Positions 1 through 10,295 of a stretch of 15,306 nucleotides of DNA are shown in pieces. A program made the translations under genes and the position numbers. The DNA lies in NCBI GenBank assembly GCA_026985515.1, contig JALSQH010000082.1, forward strand, positions 1-15,306, written 5' to 3'. The stretch is from a bacterium (GTDB taxonomy: Bacteria > JALSQH01). The first letter of the stretch is position 1; each line of letters opens with the position of its first letter. The notes beneath the pieces were generated by a model that was not told where the DNA came from, did no database searches, and saw nothing but the letters and a program-made list of their open reading frames with translations.

Positions 1-641
1 GCATTTGAAGCTATCATTTCAGCAATTTCTCTCCCTTTTCTGAAAAGGGTTTCATGGTCAGGAACGACCTCTTCCACCAGGCCAATTCTCTCTGCAGTCT
101 TTGCATCTATTTTTTCACCTGTAAAAATCAATCTTTTTGTCCATCCAAGCCCTATCAACCTCTGTAATCTGTGGGGACCCCCCAGATCAGGAGCTATCCC
201 AAGAGCAACTTCTGGCAGGGAGAAAACAGCATCACTGCTGGCTATTCTGAGATCCGCTGAAGCAATTAGTTCCACAGCTCCACCCAGACAATAGCCGTGG
301 ATGAGGGCTATCACCGGAACAGGAACTCTCTCCACCGCCATTCCGGCCTGCTGAATCTGTTTCGCTACTTCATAAGCTTTTACATTCTTTCTGGCCGGGG
401 ATTCTTCCTGAAGAATTTCCTGAAAGCAGGGCATACCTGTAAGATCAAGACCGGATGAGAAACCCTTTTCGCCTCTACCTGCAAGAATAATAACTCTGAT
501 ACTCTCTTCCCTTGAGAGATTGTTAAAAGTTTCTGTTATCTGATCCCACATTTCCCTGTTCAGGGCGTTTATTCTTTCAGGTCTATTCAGATAAACATAA
601 ACTATTCCCTTTTCCTCTCTTTCAACTTCCACTACACTCAT
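1..641 (-). CDS. Crotonase-fold enoyl-CoA hydratase/isomerase, dienoyl-CoA isomerase-like (3' end outside window)
   Basis: Acts on CoA thioesters of fatty acids in the cytoplasm. I translated it from the ATG at 641; 213 residues are visible and the C-terminus lies beyond base 1. Crotonase hallmarks are the oxyanion-hole segment FSSGLDLTGM (about 61-70), HGYCLGGAVEL (about 115-125) and SLPEVALGIAPDLGG (about 141-155). The acidic residues are E124, E144 and D152. Hydratases keep the two Glu but have Gly at the third place; mammalian delta3,5-delta2,4-dienoyl-CoA isomerase has acids at all three places with the same 20 and 8 residue spacing (D176, E196, D204 in the rat enzyme). Dienoyl-CoA isomerase is therefore the likelier activity, by inference. 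A G-rich ribosome site (AGGGGG) lies 5 nt before the ATG. It follows the SCP2 gene on the same strand, across a terminator. Family confidence is high, substrate uncertain. Confidence 0.9.
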   Translation of the reverse strand, partial: MSVVEVEREEKGIVYVYLNRPERINALNREMWDQITETFNNLSREESIRVIILAGRGEKGFSSGLDLTGMPCFQEILQEESPARKNVKAYEVAKQIQQAGMAVERVPVPVIALIHGYCLGGAVELIASADLRIASSDAVFSLPEVALGIAPDLGGPHRLQRLIGLGWTKRLIFTGEKIDAKTAERIGLVEEVVPDHETLFRKGREIAEMIASN

Positions 642-661: not shown

Positions 662-687
662 AAAAAAGCGGGGTGAACCCCCGCTTT
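662..687 (-). terminator. Intrinsic terminator between the SCP2 and crotonase genes
   Basis: A 9-bp stem (AAAGCGGGG with CCCCGCTTT, arms at 679-687 and 665-673) with a 5-nt loop is followed, on the minus strand, by a run of T. It lies about 10 nt after the SCP2 stop codon. Because the downstream crotonase ATG is only about 20 nt further on, it probably acts as an attenuator: the crotonase would depend on read-through. Confidence 0.85.
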
Positions 688-696
688 ATGGTGGAC

Positions 697-1020
697 TTAG
701 AGGATCTGTCCAAGTTTCATTGCGAGACCCATGTCTCCCTGAATTTTGAGCTTCCCGGTCATGAAAGCCATCTGGGCATTGAGTTCTTTGTTAACGATTT
801 TCAGAAAATCATCTGCTGAAACTGTAATTGTGCACTGTGCATCGCCTTCACCTTCTTTTACCACTGGTGGATCAGCTTTGAGATCAACAATCCATGTTCC
901 TCCGCCTTCACCTGTGACAACAAATTTGTAAACGCCATTTACAGCCTTTGCCTTTGAAGGATCTTCATCGAGCTGTTTCTGGATGCTTTCAAAAACTTCC
1001 TTTACACTGCTGTAAGCCAT
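697..1020 (-). CDS. SCP2 sterol-carrier-domain protein
   Basis: A stand-alone SCP2-type lipid-binding protein of 107 residues, with no signal peptide and so cytoplasmic. The family binds sterols, fatty acids or fatty acyl-CoAs in a hydrophobic pocket. The pattern is typical: an N-terminal helix (AYSSVKEVFESIQKQLDE), a central sheet with GVYKFVVTGEGGGTWIVDL, the acidic turn KEGEGDAQCTITVSADDF (about 55-72), and the C-terminal helix region MAFMTGKLKIQGDMGLAMKL. The length matches single-domain SCP2 proteins. I chose the ATG at 1020 because AAAGGAGG lies 7 nt upstream; the in-frame TTG at 1026 sits almost on that site. A promoter precedes it and a terminator follows, and the next gene on the strand is a crotonase, so a role in lipid or acyl-CoA handling is likely. 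The true ligand cannot be read from sequence. Confidence 0.9.
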   Translation of the reverse strand: MAYSSVKEVFESIQKQLDEDPSKAKAVNGVYKFVVTGEGGGTWIVDLKADPPVVKEGEGDAQCTITVSADDFLKIVNKELNAQMAFMTGKLKIQGDMGLAMKLGQIL

Positions 1021-1086
1021 AACCAAACCTCCTTTTAGTTTTTGTCTGGATTTGACATTTTTATCAATTTTGCCAAATCCACTTTA

Positions 1087-1115
1087 AAGATAACATTAAA
1101 GAGGGAAATTGTCAA
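1087..1115 (-). promoter_or_regulatory. Sigma-70-type promoter of the SCP2 gene
   Basis: On the minus strand TTGACA (1115-1110), a 17-bp spacer and TATCTT (1092-1087). Transcription would begin near 1080, leaving a leader of about 60 nt before the start at 1020. The -35 is a perfect consensus. It faces away from the promoter at 1127-1154. Confidence 0.7.
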
Positions 1116-1126
1116 GAGGTTTCCCT

Positions 1127-1154
1127 TTTTCAGGGAGAATTTTTCAGTTATAAT
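1127..1154 (+). promoter_or_regulatory. Promoter of the lipoprotein/GMC gene run
   Basis: A perfect -10 (TATAAT, 1149-1154) is preceded at 16 bp by a weak -35, TTTTCA (1127-1132). Predicted transcription start is near 1161, about 26 nt before the first lipoprotein ATG. It is divergent from the SCP2 promoter, so the two lipid-related units share one roughly 165-bp control region. Confidence 0.6.
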
Positions 1155-1186
1155 TTTTAAAGAGAATCGCAGAAAGGAGGGGAAAA

Positions 1187-1873
1187 ATGCGTAAGAGAAT
1201 TTTTTCTTTTTTAGCTGTCTTATTTTTTTCAACAGGCTGTTCTGCTCCCACCGCTATTCTCAATCACAATTTGAGGGATTTCTCTCCCAGCATAATGGGA
1301 GTTACCTCCATCCAGCTTCAGAATTATTTTTTTATCCCCTATATGGGCGGAGTTGCTGTGAAACCAGGAAAATCCCATGAAGTGTTTTTTGAGATGGGGA
1401 ACAATGCCGACAGTTTCAATTACAGATTTAACGTTTTCCATGAAAAGAACATATATTTTTCCACTGGAGTTGGTATTTCAAGAGAGGAAAAGGGTGGCGC
1501 AAATCTCGGTGGTGAGGAGAAGGATGAAGAGGATGTACAGAAGATCCCTGCCAATACATGGGTTGAATTGCCACTGACGGTAACGGTGAAGCATAAAAAT
1601 CTTTTTGGATGGGTGTCGCTTAAGCCCGGGATGGTTAAGGTGGAGGATTATGATGCATGTGAAGATAGTTATTCCTGTGACGATGAGGAAGCCAAACATT
1701 ATTCCCCGGGTCTGTTAAATGAGTTTACCATGGGCTGGGGTTTTGGTTACCTGAGCCCAAACGGTTTTTACATTCTATTTGCCTCCCAGAATTCTTTTGT
1801 AAAAATAGAGGGACCTGCAGAAGCCGGGAATCTGTTTTCTATCCTGGTTGGTTATACCCTTTATACTGAATAA
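1187..1873 (+). CDS. Predicted outer-membrane lipoprotein of unknown function
   Basis: A 228-residue protein I do not recognise. Its start is well supported: AAAGGAGG lies 6 nt upstream of the ATG. Residues 1-18 form a lipoprotein signal: MRKR, a hydrophobic stretch, then the lipobox STGC with C18 as the lipidated residue. Ser at position +2 predicts transfer to the outer membrane under the Lol rule. The mature part looks like a beta-rich soluble domain. It holds an acidic loop (about 100-116, rich in E, D and K) and a second acidic segment with two cysteines (CEDSYSCDDEE), which could form a disulfide or bind a cation. The C-terminal third is rich in aromatic and Gly residues (WGFGYLSPNGFYILF). 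It is the first gene of the plus-strand run and is followed after 40 nt by another lipoprotein, which suggests a shared envelope role. Confidence 0.8.
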   Translation: MRKRIFSFLAVLFFSTGCSAPTAILNHNLRDFSPSIMGVTSIQLQNYFFIPYMGGVAVKPGKSHEVFFEMGNNADSFNYRFNVFHEKNIYFSTGVGISREEKGGANLGGEEKDEEDVQKIPANTWVELPLTVTVKHKNLFGWVSLKPGMVKVEDYDACEDSYSCDDEEAKHYSPGLLNEFTMGWGFGYLSPNGFYILFASQNSFVKIEGPAEAGNLFSILVGYTLYTE

Positions 1874-1895
1874 GCTGGCTCCTGTACTCCAGGAG

Positions 1896-1904
1896 TGCTA
1901 TAAT
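1896..1904 (+). promoter_or_regulatory. Possible extended -10 promoter just before the phosphoesterase gene
   Basis: TGC followed by a perfect TATAAT (1899-1904) forms an extended -10 element with no clear -35. Transcription would start near 1911, only a few nt before the ATG at 1914, giving a leaderless or nearly leaderless message. A dyad (ACTCC-A-GGAGT, 1885-1895) abuts it and could be an operator. No good ribosome site is present at normal spacing (AGGAG at 1891-1895 is 18 nt away). Confidence 0.4.
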
Positions 1905-1913
1905 TTAAAAAAA

Positions 1914-4253
1914 ATGAAGAAGTTAATCTGGTCAACTGTGTTGATTTTGCTGGTGCTTGTTGCATCGTGTGGAAGGGGAGAGAAAGAAAGTAAACCACAG
2001 TATTGTAATAATGTTGAGGTCAGGAAGTTTCTTCCAGATTCTCCCGGTTTTTTTACTTACAATGGGATCAGGAGATATCTTCTCCCCAATGGTGACGTAA
2101 TCTATCCTGCAGGGACCACCTTTTACACCGGTGGTTATCCAATGGTTCCCTTTGTCACTGATGATGGTAATTTCGTTGTTGTTACTGACAATGACAACAG
2201 GGGAAACAATCTTCAGAAAATCAGTGTTTATGATTTGAGAAGTGGGAAAATCTTTTTCATCCCCGCCCACACCTTCAGGGGGGTTTATGCCTGGGTGGAG
2301 GGTGGATTTCTTAAAATTGTCTACGGAGGGGGGTGGAAGGGAACCCTTGAAGAGGTTGATCTGAATATACAGAGCGGTGAGTACAATCTGGTCCATTCTC
2401 TCTCCCTTGAGGGTTTTATTTCAGATATTGTGGTGGAGAGAAGGGGAAGGGTAGTGTATGCATCTAATTTCACAGATGGAAAAATATGGAAGGTTTCTCT
2501 TGATACATGGCAGGTGGAGAGAATATATCACGGGAAGGGTGCCATATATGATGCCGTCCTCACACCAGATGGAAAATATTTGATCTTTTCAGACTGGACC
2601 GGGCAGAGCATTTACAGACAGGATCTTGTTACAGGGAAAGTTACGAAACTTGTTGTGGGCAAGTTTCCTGAGGGAATAGTTCTGGGTTCAGGAGGAGAAA
2701 AGGGATATGTTGCTGTAAGTGGAGAGGATAAGGCAGTGGAGTTTGACTGGAAAAGATGGAAGAGGATGGGAGAGATTGAACTCAACACGGGAGACAGGAA
2801 GGGTCTCTATCCCTCTGAGGTTACGCTATGCAGTGAAAGAAACTGGCTGCTTGTCAGCAACTCCCAGGGGAATTACATTTCGGTGATTGATACGAAAAGT
2901 AACCTGATCGTGGGGAAAATTCCCACACTCTGGTACCCCACAGGAATTGTGTGTGACGAGAAACATAATTTACTTGTTTTTGCAAGTGCCAAGGGATTTG
3001 GTGGGGAACACTGGAGTGGAAGTCCCGAGATGAGCCAGTGGAACCTCACCAGAGGAATAGTTACATACATGCAGATCCCGGACGAGGATGAACTTGAGAA
3101 GTTGAGTAAAATAGTGGATGAGAATCTCACCCTGGAGAAAGAAAAACTTGATTCTCCCTGTACCCATCCTGAAACCTTCTTCAGGAGATTCCCCATTTAC
3201 CATGTGGTTCTCATTGTGAGAGAGAATAAAACATATGATGAGGATCTTGGAGATCTTGAGACGGGAAATGGTGATCCTTCCCTCACCCTTTTTGGAGAGA
3301 GGGTAACTCCCAATCTTCACCAGCTTGCCAGAGAATTTACCAACTGTGATAACTTCTATTCCAATCCTGAGGTTTCCCTTGAAGGTCATGTGTGGACAAC
3401 CCATGCTGATATAACAGATTATCTTGACAAGTCGTGGCAGAATCTGATGCCCTTTGCAGGTGTTGAAACTGCGGCAACAGCGGTAAACAGGTCCTTCTTC
3501 CATTATCTCTACAATCTGGGGATTGACTTCAGAGTCTACGGGGAAGTGGCAGGTGTTGGAACTGATCTCTTTACGATTTTCTATGACCATGTGGATATGA
3601 AGTTTCCCTTCTACAACCTTGATATTCCTGATGTGGAGAAGGCGGCAGAGTTTATCAGGGAGTTGAAGCTGGGTATTTTGAAGCCATTTACCTATATAAG
3701 TCTCCCCAACGATCACACCTATGGTTACTATCCGGGGAAACCCACCCCTGAATCAATGGTGGCAGATAATGATGAAGCCACGGGAATGATAGTTGATGCC
3801 ATTTCTCATTCTCCTTTCTGGAAAAATACTCTGATTTTTATTATTGAGGATGACCCTCAATCCTTTGCGGGAGATCATGTTGAGGCACACAGAAGTGTAT
3901 GTGTGGCAGCTGGTCCCTATGTGAAACGCCACTACACATCCCATTATCCCTACTCCATTCCCTCAATTTACAGTACAATTGAGCTGCTTTTCGGAATACC
4001 CCATTTTAACAGAAACACAGAAAAGGCTCTTCCCTTTTTTGATATATTCACAGATAAGCCTGATCTATCTTCGTATAGCTACATTGAAAGGAAGGTACCA
4101 GTTCAGTATGTTCCGGAGGATCACCCCCTTGCAGAAATGAGCAGGGAGATTTTCCGTGACATTGATGATGCTCCAGGACTGGGATTCATTCTCTGGAAGG
4201 GGATAAAGGGTGATGTGACTCCTCCACCCTACGCAGTGGGAATAGACAGATGA
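1914..4253 (+). CDS. Lipoprotein with YncE-like beta-propeller and alkaline-phosphatase-superfamily phosphoesterase domains
   Basis: A 779-residue enzyme predicted to sit on the outer membrane. Residues 1-19 are a lipoprotein signal (lipobox VASC, C19, Gly at +2). Residues about 30-400 are a beta-propeller of YncE/YVTN type, with repeated strands such as SDIVVERRGRVVYASN, AVLTPDGKYLIFSDW and ISVIDTKSNLIVGKIP. Residues about 428-740 are the phosphoesterase domain found in phospholipase C and acid phosphatases. Likely metal or catalytic segments are RENKTYDEDLG (436-446), EVSLEGHVWTTHADITDYLD, PNDHTYG (D600, H601), EDDPQ (645-649) and GDHVEAHRS (653-661). Family members cleave phosphomono- or diesters; the substrate here is unknown. 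I chose the ATG at 1914 because it gives a complete lipoprotein signal; an in-frame TTG at 1848 would bury that signal. The stop overlaps the next start by 4 nt, so the two are probably translationally coupled. Confidence 0.88.
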   Translation: MKKLIWSTVLILLVLVASCGRGEKESKPQYCNNVEVRKFLPDSPGFFTYNGIRRYLLPNGDVIYPAGTTFYTGGYPMVPFVTDDGNFVVVTDNDNRGNNLQKISVYDLRSGKIFFIPAHTFRGVYAWVEGGFLKIVYGGGWKGTLEEVDLNIQSGEYNLVHSLSLEGFISDIVVERRGRVVYASNFTDGKIWKVSLDTWQVERIYHGKGAIYDAVLTPDGKYLIFSDWTGQSIYRQDLVTGKVTKLVVGKFPEGIVLGSGGEKGYVAVSGEDKAVEFDWKRWKRMGEIELNTGDRKGLYPSEVTLCSERNWLLVSNSQGNYISVIDTKSNLIVGKIPTLWYPTGIVCDEKHNLLVFASAKGFGGEHWSGSPEMSQWNLTRGIVTYMQIPDEDELEKLSKIVDENLTLEKEKLDSPCTHPETFFRRFPIYHVVLIVRENKTYDEDLGDLETGNGDPSLTLFGERVTPNLHQLAREFTNCDNFYSNPEVSLEGHVWTTHADITDYLDKSWQNLMPFAGVETAATAVNRSFFHYLYNLGIDFRVYGEVAGVGTDLFTIFYDHVDMKFPFYNLDIPDVEKAAEFIRELKLGILKPFTYISLPNDHTYGYYPGKPTPESMVADNDEATGMIVDAISHSPFWKNTLIFIIEDDPQSFAGDHVEAHRSVCVAAGPYVKRHYTSHYPYSIPSIYSTIELLFGIPHFNRNTEKALPFFDIFTDKPDLSSYSYIERKVPVQYVPEDHPLAEMSREIFRDIDDAPGLGFILWKGIKGDVTPPPYAVGIDR

Positions 4254-5713
4254 GAAAAGTATTGGTAATTCTTTTATTGCTTTCGATTGGGTGTGGTGGC
4301 AAAAATGAGATACCAGAGGAGTATTTCACTCACCTTGAAAATGGTAAGAGGTTGCTCCTTCAGGCAAGGTATGTTGAAGCCGGGAGGGAGATGGAAAAAG
4401 CTCTGAGAGTTTATAATGGGGAGGAGGCTCTCTATGGTCTTGCAATTTCAAAGACCCTTTCAATAAATGACCTGATGATAATGCTTGTAAGGACTGTTGC
4501 ACAGGGATCATCCTATATACCCATGGCTGAAGGTGAAAGAATGATGAAGGAGGTTGAAAAAACAGCTGGTGGACTGGCGACTCAATATATGGAATCAGCA
4601 GAGCTCTGGAATAATCTGCTCGAAAGGTATAAGAAACCAGTTTTTGAAGGTGATGTACCCGTTTATTTTGCCACGGTTCCCCTTCTGGAATTCAGGGAAG
4701 AATTGGGAAGAAAGGAGGCTCTTTTCTTCTCTTCCATGGTTAATATAACTGCTTTCATTTTAACACTTTTTTACTCACAGTCACTTACTGCAGATATCCT
4801 GGGTGCCTATCTATTCTACAGGAATCATGGTGGTACAAGGGGGTTTCAACTTTCAAGACTTATCGCATATATTCTCACGGAGAATAGGGATCTTCTGACA
4901 CTGAGGAATGGGGATCTGTGGAAAAAATCCGGGGAATTTCTGGATAAGGGAGTAAAAGATTTTTATGAATTTCTCGGGGAAGAGTTTGAAACTCCCTCAA
5001 TGCAGTTTAAAGATGGGGAACTGCTCTTTAAGTTTTTTAACAGTAGATCCCCATCAGAAGAACCTCAATTTGGCACCTTTAAAGTAACCATTCCCTCACC
5101 ATTGACATCATCGGTAATGGGGGGAAAAATATATCTTGAAGATGGTTTTCTCCAGACCATTTCGGTATATCTGGGTATCCTGATAAAATTTCTTGCCCCT
5201 TCCCTCAAAACTTTTCTGGGTTCTTATGCGAATTACCTTGATTTTATAGAACCTTCCCTTCTCGTTCAGACCATTGAAACTGTAATACCTGAAAAAAGTC
5301 TTGCCTTTGATTTTAAATCCTTTTTCTCCTCGCCCGATTCAATGAGGTACTTTTTCCCTGTAACCAGAGGAGTGAGTAACATTTTTGAAAATGACCTGTA
5401 TCTTGAATGGGAGTGTGATGATCTTGATTCCCATGGCTATCCTGGTGGTGTGGCAGGTTTGATTTGTGAAAAAAATTCTTCACTGACAGATTCGGAACAC
5501 TTTGCAGGTGGTTTTAAAATAGCAAAAGATGGAATCTTATCAAGGGCTCCATATATGCTCTTTGCAGATCCTTCCATAAATGGCTTACTCTACCTCAATG
5601 GCAGTAAATTTTCTGATATATTACCCGAAGGATTAAAGAAATCTGACCTGTTGCTTTTAAATGCTTTTCTCGGGTATGCTGTAAATAAAATTCTTTCAGT
5701 GATAGGTTATTAG
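4250..5713 (+). CDS. Predicted outer-membrane lipoprotein with TPR-like N-terminus, function unknown
   Basis: A 487-residue protein I do not recognise. It starts at an ATGA overlap with the phosphoesterase stop, which indicates coupled synthesis. Residues 1-15 are a lipoprotein signal (lipobox SIGC, C15, Gly at +2, so outer membrane). Residues about 21-75 are helical and resemble a tetratricopeptide unit: HLENGKRLLLQARYVEAG then MEKALRVYNGEEALYGLAIS. The middle (about 150-220) is helical and hydrophobic, with a segment around INVTAF-like residues 163-185 that could be a membrane-apposed helix. The rest mixes beta and helical stretches, including PQFGTFKVTIPSP and LYLEWECDDLDSHGYPGG, and ends in a hydrophobic helix (LLLLNAFLGYAVNKILSVIG). 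TPR-containing lipoproteins often scaffold envelope complexes, so it may tether the neighbouring enzymes. That role is inference from position only. Confidence 0.75.
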   Translation: MRKVLVILLLLSIGCGGKNEIPEEYFTHLENGKRLLLQARYVEAGREMEKALRVYNGEEALYGLAISKTLSINDLMIMLVRTVAQGSSYIPMAEGERMMKEVEKTAGGLATQYMESAELWNNLLERYKKPVFEGDVPVYFATVPLLEFREELGRKEALFFSSMVNITAFILTLFYSQSLTADILGAYLFYRNHGGTRGFQLSRLIAYILTENRDLLTLRNGDLWKKSGEFLDKGVKDFYEFLGEEFETPSMQFKDGELLFKFFNSRSPSEEPQFGTFKVTIPSPLTSSVMGGKIYLEDGFLQTISVYLGILIKFLAPSLKTFLGSYANYLDFIEPSLLVQTIETVIPEKSLAFDFKSFFSSPDSMRYFFPVTRGVSNIFENDLYLEWECDDLDSHGYPGGVAGLICEKNSSLTDSEHFAGGFKIAKDGILSRAPYMLFADPSINGLLYLNGSKFSDILPEGLKKSDLLLLNAFLGYAVNKILSVIGY

Positions 5714-5722
5714 GAGGGTAAA

Positions 5723-6145
5723 ATGGCTTTTAACAGGTGGGAGAAAAGAACACTTGAAAAAATAGTTGAGGTATTTTTCCCACCCGGGGTGGGGGACAGG
5801 TTAAAGAGAGACCTCATAGAGGCGGGAACCGTTGAGCGACTTGACTATATGATTTCCCGCTATCCTCTGCAGGCGAGACTGCTTTTCCACATTGTGATCT
5901 GGGTTACCTACTGGGCACCGATTTTTCTTTTCGTTTCAATTTTACCCTTTAATTTCCTGAACTGGGAAAAGAGAAAAAAAGCAATGGAAAAGATGTTCTA
6001 CAGCAGAATCTACTATGTGAGGCAGTTTGCAAATCTCCTGAAACTTGTTGCGGCTATTTCATTCTTTGCAGATGAGGAAGCAAGAAGAGAAGTCGGGATA
6101 CCAGGGATAGATGACCCCATTTACTCAAAATATATGGGAGGATAA
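5723..6145 (+). CDS. Small membrane protein resembling the N-terminal domain of long-chain fatty alcohol oxidase
   Basis: A 140-residue protein read from an ATG 5 nt after AGGAGG, which overlaps the stop of the preceding gene. It begins WEKRTLEKIVEVFFPPG, like the segment that opens fatty-alcohol-oxidase-type GMC proteins (there roughly L-x-x-L-C-D-T-x-x-P). Residues about 51-73 are a hydrophobic stretch containing LLFHIVIWVTYWAPIFLF, probably one membrane helix or hairpin. Then comes LNWEKRKKAMEKMFYSRIYYVRQ and a helix ending in AAISFFADEE, which parallels the EKRE...W...SR...R...LK...FFS order in plant fatty alcohol oxidases. In those enzymes this part is fused to the FAD domain; here the FAD protein is the very next gene, one nt away. 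I infer a membrane-anchoring or substrate-channel subunit. Similarity was judged by eye, so the homology needs a profile comparison. Confidence 0.7.
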   Translation: MAFNRWEKRTLEKIVEVFFPPGVGDRLKRDLIEAGTVERLDYMISRYPLQARLLFHIVIWVTYWAPIFLFVSILPFNFLNWEKRKKAMEKMFYSRIYYVRQFANLLKLVAAISFFADEEARREVGIPGIDDPIYSKYMGG

Positions 6146-6146
6146 G

Positions 6147-7679
6147 ATGGGTAAATTTAAAAATCACATAGACGCTGCAGATATTTCAAAGTATCGTGAG
6201 GATTCAGCTGATTTTGTTGTGGTTGGAACGGGTGCAGGTGGAGGTATAGCTGGGTGGGTCCTCACGGAAATGGGTTACGAAGTTATCTGGGTGGAAGCGG
6301 GTCCCTATATGACTGCTGAGGATTTCAGGGATGATGTATACACATCAATGTTGAATCTCGCAAAGGATGCAGGTGCCACAAGCATGATGGGGAGGGCAAT
6401 TGTGACATACCTTCAGGGTAGTTGTGTAGGAGGAAGTCCACTTATCAATTCAGCAATTGTCTGGAGAACTCCTGAGGAGGTTGTGGATGAATGGGCGGAG
6501 AAGTTTGGCACCGGAAATGTTATAAATAACAGGACTCTTGAGTATGCTTTTGAGAAAATTGAAAAGCTTCTGAATATTCATCCCATAGAGGAGGAGATCC
6601 TTGGGGGAAATAATCTCCTTTTTAAAGAGGCATGTGAGAAGATGGGGTATGAGAGCAGGGTGATAAGGAGAAATACCAGAGGTTGCCATGGTTCCAACAG
6701 ATGTGTGCAGGGTTGCCCCTTTAAGGCGAAACTGAGTCCAGATGTAACTTTTGTCCCATGGAGCCTTGAAAAAGGTGCCAGGGTCTACTCAAACTGTCGG
6801 GTGGTAAAAATTATTTCAAAGAACAGGAAAGCCACCGGGGTTGAGGTTGTTTTTAAAGAAAGGGGAAAGGAAAATTACAGGCCTGTTAAGGGCAGAATTT
6901 ATGCAAGGAGAGGAGTTATCCTCGCAGCAGGAGCCATTGATACACCTCATCTGATCAGGAAAAGCAGATTACAGGGTGATTCAAAGGCTGTGGGAAAATT
7001 CTTCATGGCTCACCCGGGAGTTGGAATTGGTGGAATATTTGACAGAGAGATAAATATCTCCTTGGGACCCTCTCAGGGGTATGAATCTCCCCATTTCCGC
7101 AAAGGTCACCATTTCAAGATGGAGACAATCGGGCTACCCATTGAGCTTTTATCAGCCAGAACTCCCGGGTTTGGCAGAGAATTTATGAAGAGAATAGAAA
7201 ATTACAACTATGTGGCTGTCTGGGACAGTTATGTTAAATCTGAGGCCCATGGGCAGGTCATGTCCACAATATTTGGGCCTGTACCAAAGTATGAGCCAAC
7301 TAAAAGGGATACCGAGATCCTGATTTTTGCAATTAAGAAGATGGCGGAGATGATGTTTGAGGTGGGTGCAAAAGTTGTATTCCCCGGAATATATGGCATT
7401 CCTGAAGAAATAACGAAGGATCAGCTCAACCTTATTGATGAAGCAGAACCTGATCCCAGAAATCTCCTCCTCTATGCGTCGCATCTTTTTGGCGGTGCCA
7501 GAATGGGTGTTGATCCCCGTATAAGTGTTGTTGATCTGAATTTTAAGGTACACGGAGTGGAAAATCTCTTTGTTACTGATGCAAGTGTTTTTCCAACAAA
7601 TCTCGGGGTCAATCCTCAGCATACGGTAATGGCTGTTTCCATGATCGGTGCGGAGAGGATCGGTGAGAGTGCGCGGTGA
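6147..7679 (+). CDS. GMC-family FAD-dependent oxidoreductase, fatty-alcohol-oxidase/cholesterol-oxidase-like
   Basis: A 510-residue flavoprotein that should oxidise an alcohol, probably a hydrophobic one. The start is the ATG at 6147, with GGAGG 5 nt upstream; an in-frame ATG at 6111 would overlap the preceding gene by 35 nt and lacks a ribosome site. The dinucleotide-binding motif VVVGTGAGGGIAG lies at about 24-36, followed by VIWVEAGPY. A second FAD/substrate segment is LQGSCVGGSPLINSAIVW. A cysteine cluster, C180-x5-C186-x3-C190, sits where related enzymes often have C-x2-C-x3-C-like motifs. The C-terminal domain has HLFGGARMG (H446) and VFPTNLGVNPQHTVMA (N489, H492), the usual catalytic His/Asn region of this branch, and VENLFVTDASVFP. 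There is no signal peptide, so it is cytoplasmic or held at the inner face by its small partner. Substrate is unproven; long-chain alcohols or sterol-like compounds are plausible. Confidence 0.9.
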   Translation: MGKFKNHIDAADISKYREDSADFVVVGTGAGGGIAGWVLTEMGYEVIWVEAGPYMTAEDFRDDVYTSMLNLAKDAGATSMMGRAIVTYLQGSCVGGSPLINSAIVWRTPEEVVDEWAEKFGTGNVINNRTLEYAFEKIEKLLNIHPIEEEILGGNNLLFKEACEKMGYESRVIRRNTRGCHGSNRCVQGCPFKAKLSPDVTFVPWSLEKGARVYSNCRVVKIISKNRKATGVEVVFKERGKENYRPVKGRIYARRGVILAAGAIDTPHLIRKSRLQGDSKAVGKFFMAHPGVGIGGIFDREINISLGPSQGYESPHFRKGHHFKMETIGLPIELLSARTPGFGREFMKRIENYNYVAVWDSYVKSEAHGQVMSTIFGPVPKYEPTKRDTEILIFAIKKMAEMMFEVGAKVVFPGIYGIPEEITKDQLNLIDEAEPDPRNLLLYASHLFGGARMGVDPRISVVDLNFKVHGVENLFVTDASVFPTNLGVNPQHTVMAVSMIGAERIGESAR

Positions 7680-8445
7680 GTCAGGGATCTCCAGGGATTG
7701 GCTTGAGGAGATCTATTTCCTTTACAATCACAGAGAGTATGTCCATCCTGATCCCCTTGAATTTCTCTATAACTTTGAGAGCTGTGGGGATATGGAAATC
7801 GCAGGCTTAATTGCTTCATCCCTTGCCTATGGCAATGTAAAGCAGATTTTAAGAAGTGTTAAGAGTGTGCTTGATCGGATGGGGAATTCCCCTCTGAATT
7901 TTGTAATGAACACCAGCGAGAAAGAGAAGAAATATTGCTTTAAAAATTTTAAGCACAGATTCACCACAGGTCAGGAAGTAGCAGAACTGCTTGAAAGAAC
8001 GAAGAAATTAATACTTGAGTATGGATCTCTTGGTGCCTTTATTCAAAAGGTTTCAGGAAGTGAAAGCAGTATTATTGATATCCAGGAAGAATTTGTGAAG
8101 CAACTTATCTCAGGGGTAAAATCAACTCTGTTGCCTGAAGTTAAAAGGGGAAGTGCATCTAAAAGATTAAATCTCTTTTTCAGGTGGATGGTTAGAAAGG
8201 ATGAAGTTGATCCAGGATGCTGGTCTGGAAAAATCCTCCCTTCCCAACTTCTCATTCCCCTCGATACCCATATGTACAGGTTTGCAGTAAAGTTTGGTAT
8301 TACCAGAAGGAAAAGTGCGAATTTAAAAACAGAGATGGAAATTACAGATTTTTTTAAAAAGGTGAATCCTGAAGACCCTGTAAAGTATGATTTTGCAATA
8401 ACAAGGGCAGGTATTGGTAGATGGTATGAGTGGGATCAGAAGTAG
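7663..8445 (+). CDS. TIGR02757/DUF2400 family protein
   Basis: About 260 residues; belongs to the uncharacterised TIGR02757 (DUF2400) family, judged from the near-N-terminal segment NHREYVHPDPLEFLY, from MEIAGLIASSLAYGNVKQIL, and from the C-terminal run FFRWMVRKDEVDPGCW, IPLDTHMYRFAVKFGI and NPEDPVKYDFAITRAGI. Length fits the family. The start is uncertain: in-frame GTG codons lie at 7648, 7663 and 7669, and GGAGAGG at 7652-7658 best serves 7663. All choices overlap the end of the GMC gene, so translation is probably coupled. The order of helices around LDTHMYR recalls the DTH-x-x-R segment after the catalytic loop in HhH-GPD DNA glycosylases such as endonuclease III, but the helix-hairpin-helix Gly-rich turn and catalytic Lys are not evident. 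It may be an RNA/DNA-related protein carried along in the gene run rather than part of lipid metabolism. Confidence 0.85.
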   Translation: MRVRGESGISRDWLEEIYFLYNHREYVHPDPLEFLYNFESCGDMEIAGLIASSLAYGNVKQILRSVKSVLDRMGNSPLNFVMNTSEKEKKYCFKNFKHRFTTGQEVAELLERTKKLILEYGSLGAFIQKVSGSESSIIDIQEEFVKQLISGVKSTLLPEVKRGSASKRLNLFFRWMVRKDEVDPGCWSGKILPSQLLIPLDTHMYRFAVKFGITRRKSANLKTEMEITDFFKKVNPEDPVKYDFAITRAGIGRWYEWDQK

Positions 8446-8731: not shown

Positions 8732-8743
8732 TGCAAATTTGCA
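8732..8743. repeat. 12-bp perfect palindrome at the ATPase start codon
   Basis: TGCAAATTTGCA covers the place where a ribosome-binding site should be, and no Shine-Dalgarno match is present. It could be an operator for self-repression or a small hairpin in the leader. Its half-sites TGCAAA and TTTGCA recur, spread apart, at 8462-8467 and 8487-8492. Confidence 0.5.
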
Positions 8744-8747
8744 AAAA

Positions 8748-9929
8748 ATGATTGAAAGAGAAATTACACCATACTTGAAAAAGGCTGCGAGCGAATATCC
8801 GGTTGTAACGGTAACGGGACCGATGCAATCTGGCAAAACCACTCTTGTGAAAATGGTTTTTCCAGAGAAGGTTTACTACTCTCTTGAGGCACCAGATATC
8901 AGATCAATTGCTTTTTCCGATCCCAGAGGTTTCCTTGCTGAAGGGGGAAGCAGAGGGATGATTATTGATGAAGTACAGCATCTTCCTCAGTTACTTTCAT
9001 ATATTCAAGTAATGGTTGATGAGAGGAAGGTTCCTGGCTCTTTTATTTTGACGGGAAGTCATCAACCCAGATTGCATGAAGCTATTGCTCATCAATCCCT
9101 TGCTGGAAGGGTAAATATTATCCGATTACTTCCATTTTCTATATCTGAGGTCAAGAAATATCATGTTCAGATTGATCCATTTGATTTGATTTTCAGGGGA
9201 TTTTATCCTGCTATTTATGAAGAGAAATTGAGTGTTGGGGAATTTTATCGCAATTATATTGAAACTTATGTTGAAAGAGATGTGCGTTCCATAGCAAATA
9301 TTCATGATCTCTTTCGCTTTCAGCAATTTATGATCCTTCTTGCCGGAAGAACAGGACAGATTCTAAATTATTCCTCAATTTCAAATGATCTTGGAATTTC
9401 TGTAAACAGTGTAAAAAACTGGATTAGTGTTCTTTTGTCTTCATATCTGGTTTTCATTTTGCCCCCATATTATATTAATATTCGAAAAAGAGTGGTAAAA
9501 TCACCAAAGATATATTTTACTGATGTTGGTCTGGGTTCTTTTCTTCTGGGTATAAAGTCCCCTGATCAGGTTAAATATCATCCACTTCGTGGCAATCTCT
9601 ACGAAAATATGGTAATTGTGGAAATAATAAAATCATTCTATAATAAAGGTAACAGGCCAGACATTTATTTTTTCCGTGATTCCAGGGGAAACGAAATTGA
9701 TCTTGTTATAAGAATCAGCAGAGGATTGATTCTGATTGAAATAAAATCAGCTTCAACATTTACCCCTGAGTTTTTGAAAAGTTTTGAAAAATTTAAACGG
9801 GTTACAGCAGAGCCTGTAATTAAAGAAATTCTTTTCTACAATGGTGAACAAAACTTCAAAATAAAGGGAGTGAAAGTTTTAAATCCTTTGTCTGTTAAAA
9901 ATCTGTGGAATGAAGTGATTGAGGAGTAA
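8748..9929 (+). CDS. AAA_14/DUF4143 family ATPase with nuclease-like C-terminal fold
   Basis: A 393-residue P-loop ATPase of the AAA_14 plus DUF4143 family. Walker A is GPMQSGKT (24-31), Walker B MIIDEVQHLP (D74, E75), and a sensor-like LTGSHQPRLH follows. Downstream are the family segments SLAGRVNIIRLLPFSISE, a winged-helix-like part (ILNYSSISNDLGISVNSVKNW) and VYFTDVGLGSFLLG-like residues. The C-terminus has NEIDLVI (D318) and LIEIKSA (E331, K333), the D-x12-ExK arrangement of PD-(D/E)XK nucleases. The family is frequent in mobile or patchily distributed loci; its cellular role is poorly known. I chose the ATG at 8748 to match the usual MIERE beginning; a TTG three codons upstream is the alternative. 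It is AT-rich, has its own promoter, lacks a ribosome site and ends 7 nt from the 3' end of ssrA, which suggests an acquired unit. Confidence 0.92.
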   Translation: MIEREITPYLKKAASEYPVVTVTGPMQSGKTTLVKMVFPEKVYYSLEAPDIRSIAFSDPRGFLAEGGSRGMIIDEVQHLPQLLSYIQVMVDERKVPGSFILTGSHQPRLHEAIAHQSLAGRVNIIRLLPFSISEVKKYHVQIDPFDLIFRGFYPAIYEEKLSVGEFYRNYIETYVERDVRSIANIHDLFRFQQFMILLAGRTGQILNYSSISNDLGISVNSVKNWISVLLSSYLVFILPPYYINIRKRVVKSPKIYFTDVGLGSFLLGIKSPDQVKYHPLRGNLYENMVIVEIIKSFYNKGNRPDIYFFRDSRGNEIDLVIRISRGLILIEIKSASTFTPEFLKSFEKFKRVTAEPVIKEILFYNGEQNFKIKGVKVLNPLSVKNLWNEVIEE

Positions 9930-9936
9930 TTTTTAT

Positions 9937-10295
9937 TGGTGGAGGTGGCGGGAATCGAACCCGCGTCCGGGAGTGCTACGCTAAGACCTCTACATGCTTA
10001 GCCTGTGTTTTTATTTTTCCCTGTTGAGTCTCCCACAGGCAGGATCCTCAACAGGTAGCCAGGATAGATACGTGGTTGTTATCCCCTGGCTGGATAACAA
10101 CCACGTCCTGCCGTGAATGACCCCTTCCATATCCCGGCAGGAGAGGATATGGAAGAGGTGGCTGCTCTAATTAGGCAGCCAGAGCATAGTCATAATCAGC
10201 GGCACTTATTCGGCCTCTCGCCTTTTTTACGGGATGGCGAGCAACCCGGCATGCAGTCTTAGCTTCACTACTCCCGTCGAAACCTGCACACCCCC
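9937..10295 (-). ncRNA. ssrA: Transfer-messenger RNA (tmRNA)
   Basis: A 359-nt one-piece tmRNA, which with SmpB rescues stalled ribosomes. The acceptor stem pairs GGGGGTG at the 5' end with CACCTCC before the encoded CCA. The T-arm contains GGTTCGATTCCC and the 5' part has GGTTTCGACGGG. All four pseudoknots can be drawn: PK1 (10217-10248; stem CGGG/CCCG, loop CTCGCC with GGCGAG), PK2 (10106-10155; 11-bp stem, loop TCCTGCCG with CGGCAGGA), PK3 (10057-10105; 14-bp stem, loop AGCCAGG with CCTGGCT) and PK4 (10001-10055; 9-bp stem, GCCTGTG with CACAGGC). The tag frame lies between PK1 and PK2. A promoter precedes it; no hairpin terminator follows the CCA, and transcription would run into the antisense strand of the convergent ATPase gene. 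Mature ends are inferred from pairing. Confidence 0.97.
10171..10203 (-). other. tmRNA tag reading frame (AADYDYALAA)
   Basis: Beginning at the GCC that follows AATAAGT (aligned with the E. coli resume codon after AATAGTC), ten codons read A-A-D-Y-D-Y-A-L-A-A and end in TAA. With the alanine delivered by the charged tmRNA the full tag is AAADYDYALAA. The ALAA end is the standard degron read by ClpXP-type proteases. Confidence 0.9.

Follow-up and report, generated by a model that had tools for sequence, protein, structure and literature searches.

The gene cluster in this contig raises the question of whether its neighboring genes encode one envelope pathway or a smaller conserved unit flanked by incidental neighbors. 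The window is the entire contig of 15,306 bp, which comes from a metagenome-type assembly of an uncultured bacterium (268 contigs, 2.36 Mb, 97.6% complete). Among the 40 relatives that we examined, one genome (G001) belongs to the same family, and the rest are related at the domain level only. The original prediction assigned positions 697-7679 to envelope-lipid processing by an SCP2 lipid carrier and a crotonase on one strand and three lipoproteins (one a phosphoesterase), a membrane subunit, and a GMC alcohol oxidase on the other. Pfam matches and lipoboxes confirmed this gene content. The features of the window are as follows.

3..641, minus strand: crotonase/enoyl-CoA hydratase (PF00378, E 3.7e-43), truncated by the contig end
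687..665, minus strand: terminator-like hairpin with a 9-bp stem and then a T run, between the SCP2 and crotonase genes
697..1026, minus strand: SCP2-domain protein (PF02036, E 2.6e-27), divergent from the plus-strand genes
1187..1873, plus strand: LP228, a 228-aa lipoprotein (lipobox FSTGC)
1914..4253, plus strand: PE, a 779-aa lipoprotein with a propeller and a phosphoesterase domain (lipobox LVASC; PF04185, E 2.5e-12)
4250..5713, plus strand: LP487, a 487-aa lipoprotein (lipobox LSIGC) with a TPR-like N-terminus
5723..6145, plus strand: g140, the smaller partner in the GMC pair (140 aa, helical, membrane-associated), with a paralogue beside a second GMC gene
6147..7679, plus strand: GMC flavoprotein dehydrogenase/oxidase subunit (PF00732, E 6.7e-41; PF05199)
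7648..8445, plus strand: DUF2400 protein (TIGR02757), overlapping the GMC gene
8739..9929, plus strand: AAA/DUF4143 ATPase
9937..10295, minus strand: tmRNA (tag AADYDYALAA), directly after the ATPase gene

The predicted coupling of the plus-strand genes agreed with the spacing that we measured: 40 nt separate LP228 from PE, PE and LP487 overlap by 4 nt, and gaps of 9 nt and 1 nt precede g140 and GMC, respectively. We placed the start of PE at the ATG at 1914 instead of the mechanical ORF start at 1848, and the start of the crotonase at the ATG at 641, which has a Shine-Dalgarno sequence. All of the named genes are present, but the proposed span needed correction at both ends. The plus-strand run continues past 7679, where DUF2400 overlaps GMC, and most of the crotonase gene lies outside of the span. 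The lipoboxes suggest that the three lipoproteins reside at the surface or outer membrane. The tmRNA was the only RNA family found in the window. An association with anti-phage defence was considered and dropped, as PADLOC gave no match.

PE and LP487 are a conserved gene pair

We compared the neighborhoods of the window genes across genomes. At 18 further loci, in distantly related genomes, LP487 adjoins PE and shares its strand. PE comes first in 17 of the 18, the lipoprotein comes first in L055, and the matched parts of the two genes are 18-104 nt apart. The surrounding genes vary between loci and are common only among close relatives; since the flanks vary, we regard the PE-LP487 pair as the unit. 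Conserved co-occurrence had been put forward as support for the whole set. It held for PE and LP487, but LP228, g140, GMC, SCP2, and crotonase were not detected at any of the 18 other pair loci. We found no description of the pair in the literature that we searched.

To obtain a frequency that does not depend on LP487, we used the counts from a search of 377 Myxococcota genomes that started from PE; these genomes are a sample from the phylum of one genome named as Myxococcota. LP487 lies directly downstream of 15 of the 16 PE relatives that scored above 600 bits, and this PE-started count is an unbiased frequency. The sixteenth relative (in G245) sits at a contig edge, and the LP487 gene of that genome begins at the edge of another contig. 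Pairing was rare among lower-scoring PE relatives (2 of 61), most of which were judged by coordinate comparison, with only some of the loci read individually. Direct scanning of the flanks at 15 of these weaker loci revealed no adjacent LP487. A reciprocal search of the 377 genomes with the LP487 profile, in which the matching loci were then read, contributed additional pairs to the 18; it scored three candidates per genome and may have missed some copies. Matches to positions 1-75 of this profile in many Myxococcota reflect generic TPR similarity and were left out of the counts. A scan of bacterial genomes with a PE alignment gave relatives in many phyla; a scan with the single PE sequence gave none.

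The three Myxococcota PE relatives with the highest coverage (L060-L062) each have an LP487 homologue directly downstream, and they have a C-terminal end of the GxILWKxxxGDVxPPPYAxGIDR type in common with the window PE. In L061 and L062 the two genes at first looked fused, an artefact of taking the longest ORF where GC content is high; a frame-resolved reading gave two adjacent genes. In four related Myxococcota loci, the pair is followed by a protein of about 200 aa with an N-terminal membrane-like helix (L060:14237-14824, L061:14211-14837, L173:6893-7498, and L192:8965-9594). This protein is possibly a third gene in a subset of loci.

We placed the window PE in a tree of 104 PE rows. The clade around it is supported (SH-aLRT 97), and each of its 16 rows is paired. 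The pairing label changes 3 times on the tree compared with 17.7 times in shuffles; many of the paired rows were gathered via LP487, and the tree shows placement rather than an unbiased frequency. Pairwise identities of PE and LP487 are strongly correlated across 19 pairs (r = 0.95), a correlation that plain vertical descent alone also predicts. The window LP487 groups with unpaired paralogues from its own phylum (88/79, long branches), and we do not claim that the LP487 and PE trees match everywhere.

Both families also occur alone. Solitary PE copies and solitary LP487-like proteins both occur in the host genome and in G015, so the two do not strictly need each other at the family level. The second PE of the host genome occupies a different, unpaired branch of the PE tree and lies on another contig (C133), where a gene for a HEAT-repeat protein follows it; the host's LP487-like proteins stand alone. 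Two loci place an unpaired LP487-like lipoprotein beside genes that we assigned by eye as TetR-like and DtxR-like (L043:6169-9102 and L046:1245-4228), and their gene order is identical in the host genome and G001. Myxococcota additionally encode LP487-like proteins of about 750 aa (L185 and L187-L191) that carry an internal insertion and are not next to a PE gene. We handled these as a separate subfamily.

The unpaired copies bear on whether PE and LP487 function together. The two genes might be co-transcribed only because they pass on together as a two-gene cassette, by vertical descent or by block exchange, with LP487 having a function of its own, for example as an envelope scaffold. The solitary LP487-like proteins in the host phylum, in G015, and in the 750-aa group fit such an arrangement, as does the wide occurrence of PE without LP487. 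We nevertheless judge it rather unlikely. Adjacency has been kept while the flanks changed and while the proteins diverged to mean identities of 43% (PE) and 29% (LP487), and it is limited to one PE clade and a few deeper members. We favor the explanation that the conserved unit is an envelope phosphoesterase with a dedicated TPR lipoprotein partner, which we consider probable; the complex, its outer-membrane location, and its activity are predictions.

PE is a predicted envelope phosphoesterase with an N-terminal propeller

PE combines an N-terminal seven-bladed beta-propeller of the YncE type with a C-terminal phosphoesterase domain of the AcpA/phospholipase C (PLC) type. Its match to PF04185 scored 47.1 bits against a curated Pfam cutoff of 23. 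An AF2 model built with 36 sequences had a mean pLDDT of 86.8, and Foldseek aligned the propeller with YncE structures 3vgz and 7seu (TM-scores by target of 0.78 and 0.79). Because Foldseek searches with the full model were flooded by WD40/G-beta propellers, the assignment of the phosphoesterase half comes from sequence profiles. This domain matched AcpA (PDB 2d1g) with an E-value of 1.5e-12 and matched PLCs more weakly. AcpA residues E43, N44, D386, and D387, which we take to be active-site residues, align with E-N and D-D residues that are invariant in the 36 PE sequences. AcpA S175 is presumably the serine nucleophile. The profile alignment to 2d1g leaves the serine region of PE unaligned to S175, and the candidate nucleophile in PE is an invariant Ser within a Ser-x-x-Gly-His motif, which as a whole is nearly invariant among the 36 sequences. 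PE is most likely an envelope phosphoesterase, with an activity predicted from these conserved motifs.

We compared PE to known proteins. Proteins that join a YncE-like propeller to PF04185, which commonly carry the annotation "bifunctional YncE / alkaline phosphatase family" protein, have the same domain order and active-site motifs as PE. They are widespread in Bacteroidota, Acidobacteriota, Planctomycetota, Myxococcota, and Bacillota. Unlike the window PE, those outside of the paired Myxococcota-type group have no adjacent LP487. Our literature search found no biochemically characterised protein of this architecture. The Francisella acid phosphatase AcpA and the bacterial and plant phospholipases C of PF04185 resemble PE by profile, and the positions of the four AcpA residues are kept in PE. 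AcpA (498 residues in 2d1g) differs in lacking a propeller; the window protein, by contrast, carries a lipobox and has a partner gene.

A narrower version of our preferred explanation, compatible with it, is that the pair acts as a phosphate-scavenging device like the low-phosphate-inducible phosphatase lipoproteins of Flavobacterium. Expression of Fjoh_3414, a predicted propeller-containing "putative phosphatase" lipoprotein from Flavobacterium, rises strongly when phosphate is depleted (PMC8115612), and PE is itself a predicted envelope phosphoesterase. However, the domains listed for Fjoh_3414 do not include PF04185, and no transporter is consistently adjacent to the pair across loci. We offer phosphate scavenging as a tentative analogy.

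LP487 is a candidate partner of PE

LP487 has no family of its own in Pfam, NCBIfam, PHROG, or PADLOC. The TPR similarity of its profile is confined to the N-terminus, and its C-terminal region had no match in any of these four collections. The structure model was too poor for a structure search (pLDDT 43.5). TPR domains commonly mediate protein contacts. The TPR domain and the overlapping gene order suggest that LP487 is a partner of PE.

Our model for the pair is as follows. The AcpA/phospholipase C-type domain of PE would hydrolyse a phosphate ester outside of the cytoplasm, and the YncE-like propeller would supply a binding face. LP487, produced from the overlapping downstream gene, would hold, localise, or organise PE at the envelope. 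A bolder proposal is that Myxococcota and related uncultured phyla have an undescribed envelope enzyme complex made of the two lipoproteins. In it, LP487 would represent a new family of TPR lipoproteins and would dock PE onto a specific phosphate ester of the envelope or of prey origin. We regard this as speculative and, on balance, doubtful. What the computational analysis established is the conservation of the pair, the identities of its domains, and the conserved active-site motifs. The pair joins a known enzyme fold to a predicted dedicated partner from a family absent in Pfam and NCBIfam, making it a compact and testable unit, and it provides a concrete functional lead for an unnamed lipoprotein family.

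The remaining genes lie outside the conserved unit

The host genome contains a second g140-GMC pair (C228; L042:6331-9042) without lipoproteins or PE. This second pair is preceded by a gene for a GntR-like regulator (assigned by eye). The window GMC protein is 32% identical over 99% to the GMC protein of Alteromonas macleodii pKD02. The Alteromonas genes, which encode a PF13618 subunit (gluconate 2-dehydrogenase subunit 3 type) and a GMC protein beside an aldehyde dehydrogenase, have the same order and adjacency as those of the window. A small gene directly before the GMC gene thus recurs in the host paralogue and in the Alteromonas analogue. Tsukamurella has a single-chain GMC form with a PF13618-like N-terminus. 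Neither g140 nor its paralogue had a Pfam match or reached PF13618, and the profile match of g140 to PF13618-like subunits was weak (hhalign probability 44, E 2.3e-4). For these reasons, we describe g140 as a divergent counterpart of the small subunit or N-terminal segment of GMC dehydrogenases and not as a member of PF13618. It also differs from the Alteromonas subunit in lacking the Tat-like signal suggested for that protein. The g140-GMC pair is a two-gene version of the known small-subunit/GMC dehydrogenases. It would operate as an independent membrane-associated alcohol or polyol dehydrogenase module that shares a transcription unit with PE-LP487 by chance.

SCP2 and crotonase had been read as one divergent unit. 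They do lie on the same strand, but the hairpin between them reads AAAGCGGGG-GTTCA-CCCCGCTTT on the minus strand (687..665) with a T run after it. SCP2 and LP228 each have a sigma-70-like site of their own, the two sites lying back to back, with the promoter-like site for SCP2 at 1115..1087 on the minus strand. Because of the terminator-like hairpin and the separate promoter-like sites, SCP2 and crotonase do not make up one clean unit of co-transcription. A crotonase gene lies within 1.5 kb of the SCP2 homologue at 1 of 11 loci. We considered SCP2 and crotonase to be lineage-specific or unrelated neighbors outside of the conserved unit.

These results bear on the pathway of the original prediction, in which surface cleavage of a phospholipid or phosphoester by PE yields an alcohol, oxidation of that alcohol by g140-GMC follows, and SCP2 and crotonase pass it on to beta-oxidation. 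The adjacency of the genes and the tight spacing on the plus strand speak for it, and the aldehyde dehydrogenase beside the Alteromonas GMC pair makes alcohol oxidation by the GMC module plausible. Against it, PE and LP487 are the only named genes that co-occur at the pair loci, the GMC-pair paralogue occurs without PE, and the crotonase sits on the opposite strand behind a terminator-like hairpin. Homologues are also scattered in unrelated contexts, as seen for the second g140-GMC copy, the lone PE and LP487 paralogues, and LP228. We therefore find a single system of surface cleavage, alcohol oxidation, and beta-oxidation very improbable. The window illustrates how an operon from a sparsely sampled phylum can combine a conserved pair with ordinary, incidental neighbors.

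LP228 is co-directional with PE and LP487 but falls outside of the conserved unit. It had no Pfam or NCBIfam match, and its homologues were found only in G001, where four copies occupy other contexts and one context is a tandem pair. In the sample examined, the LP228 family is restricted to the bacterial family of the host. One G001 contig also carries a relative of the DUF2400 gene about 5 kb from a PE homologue (L048).
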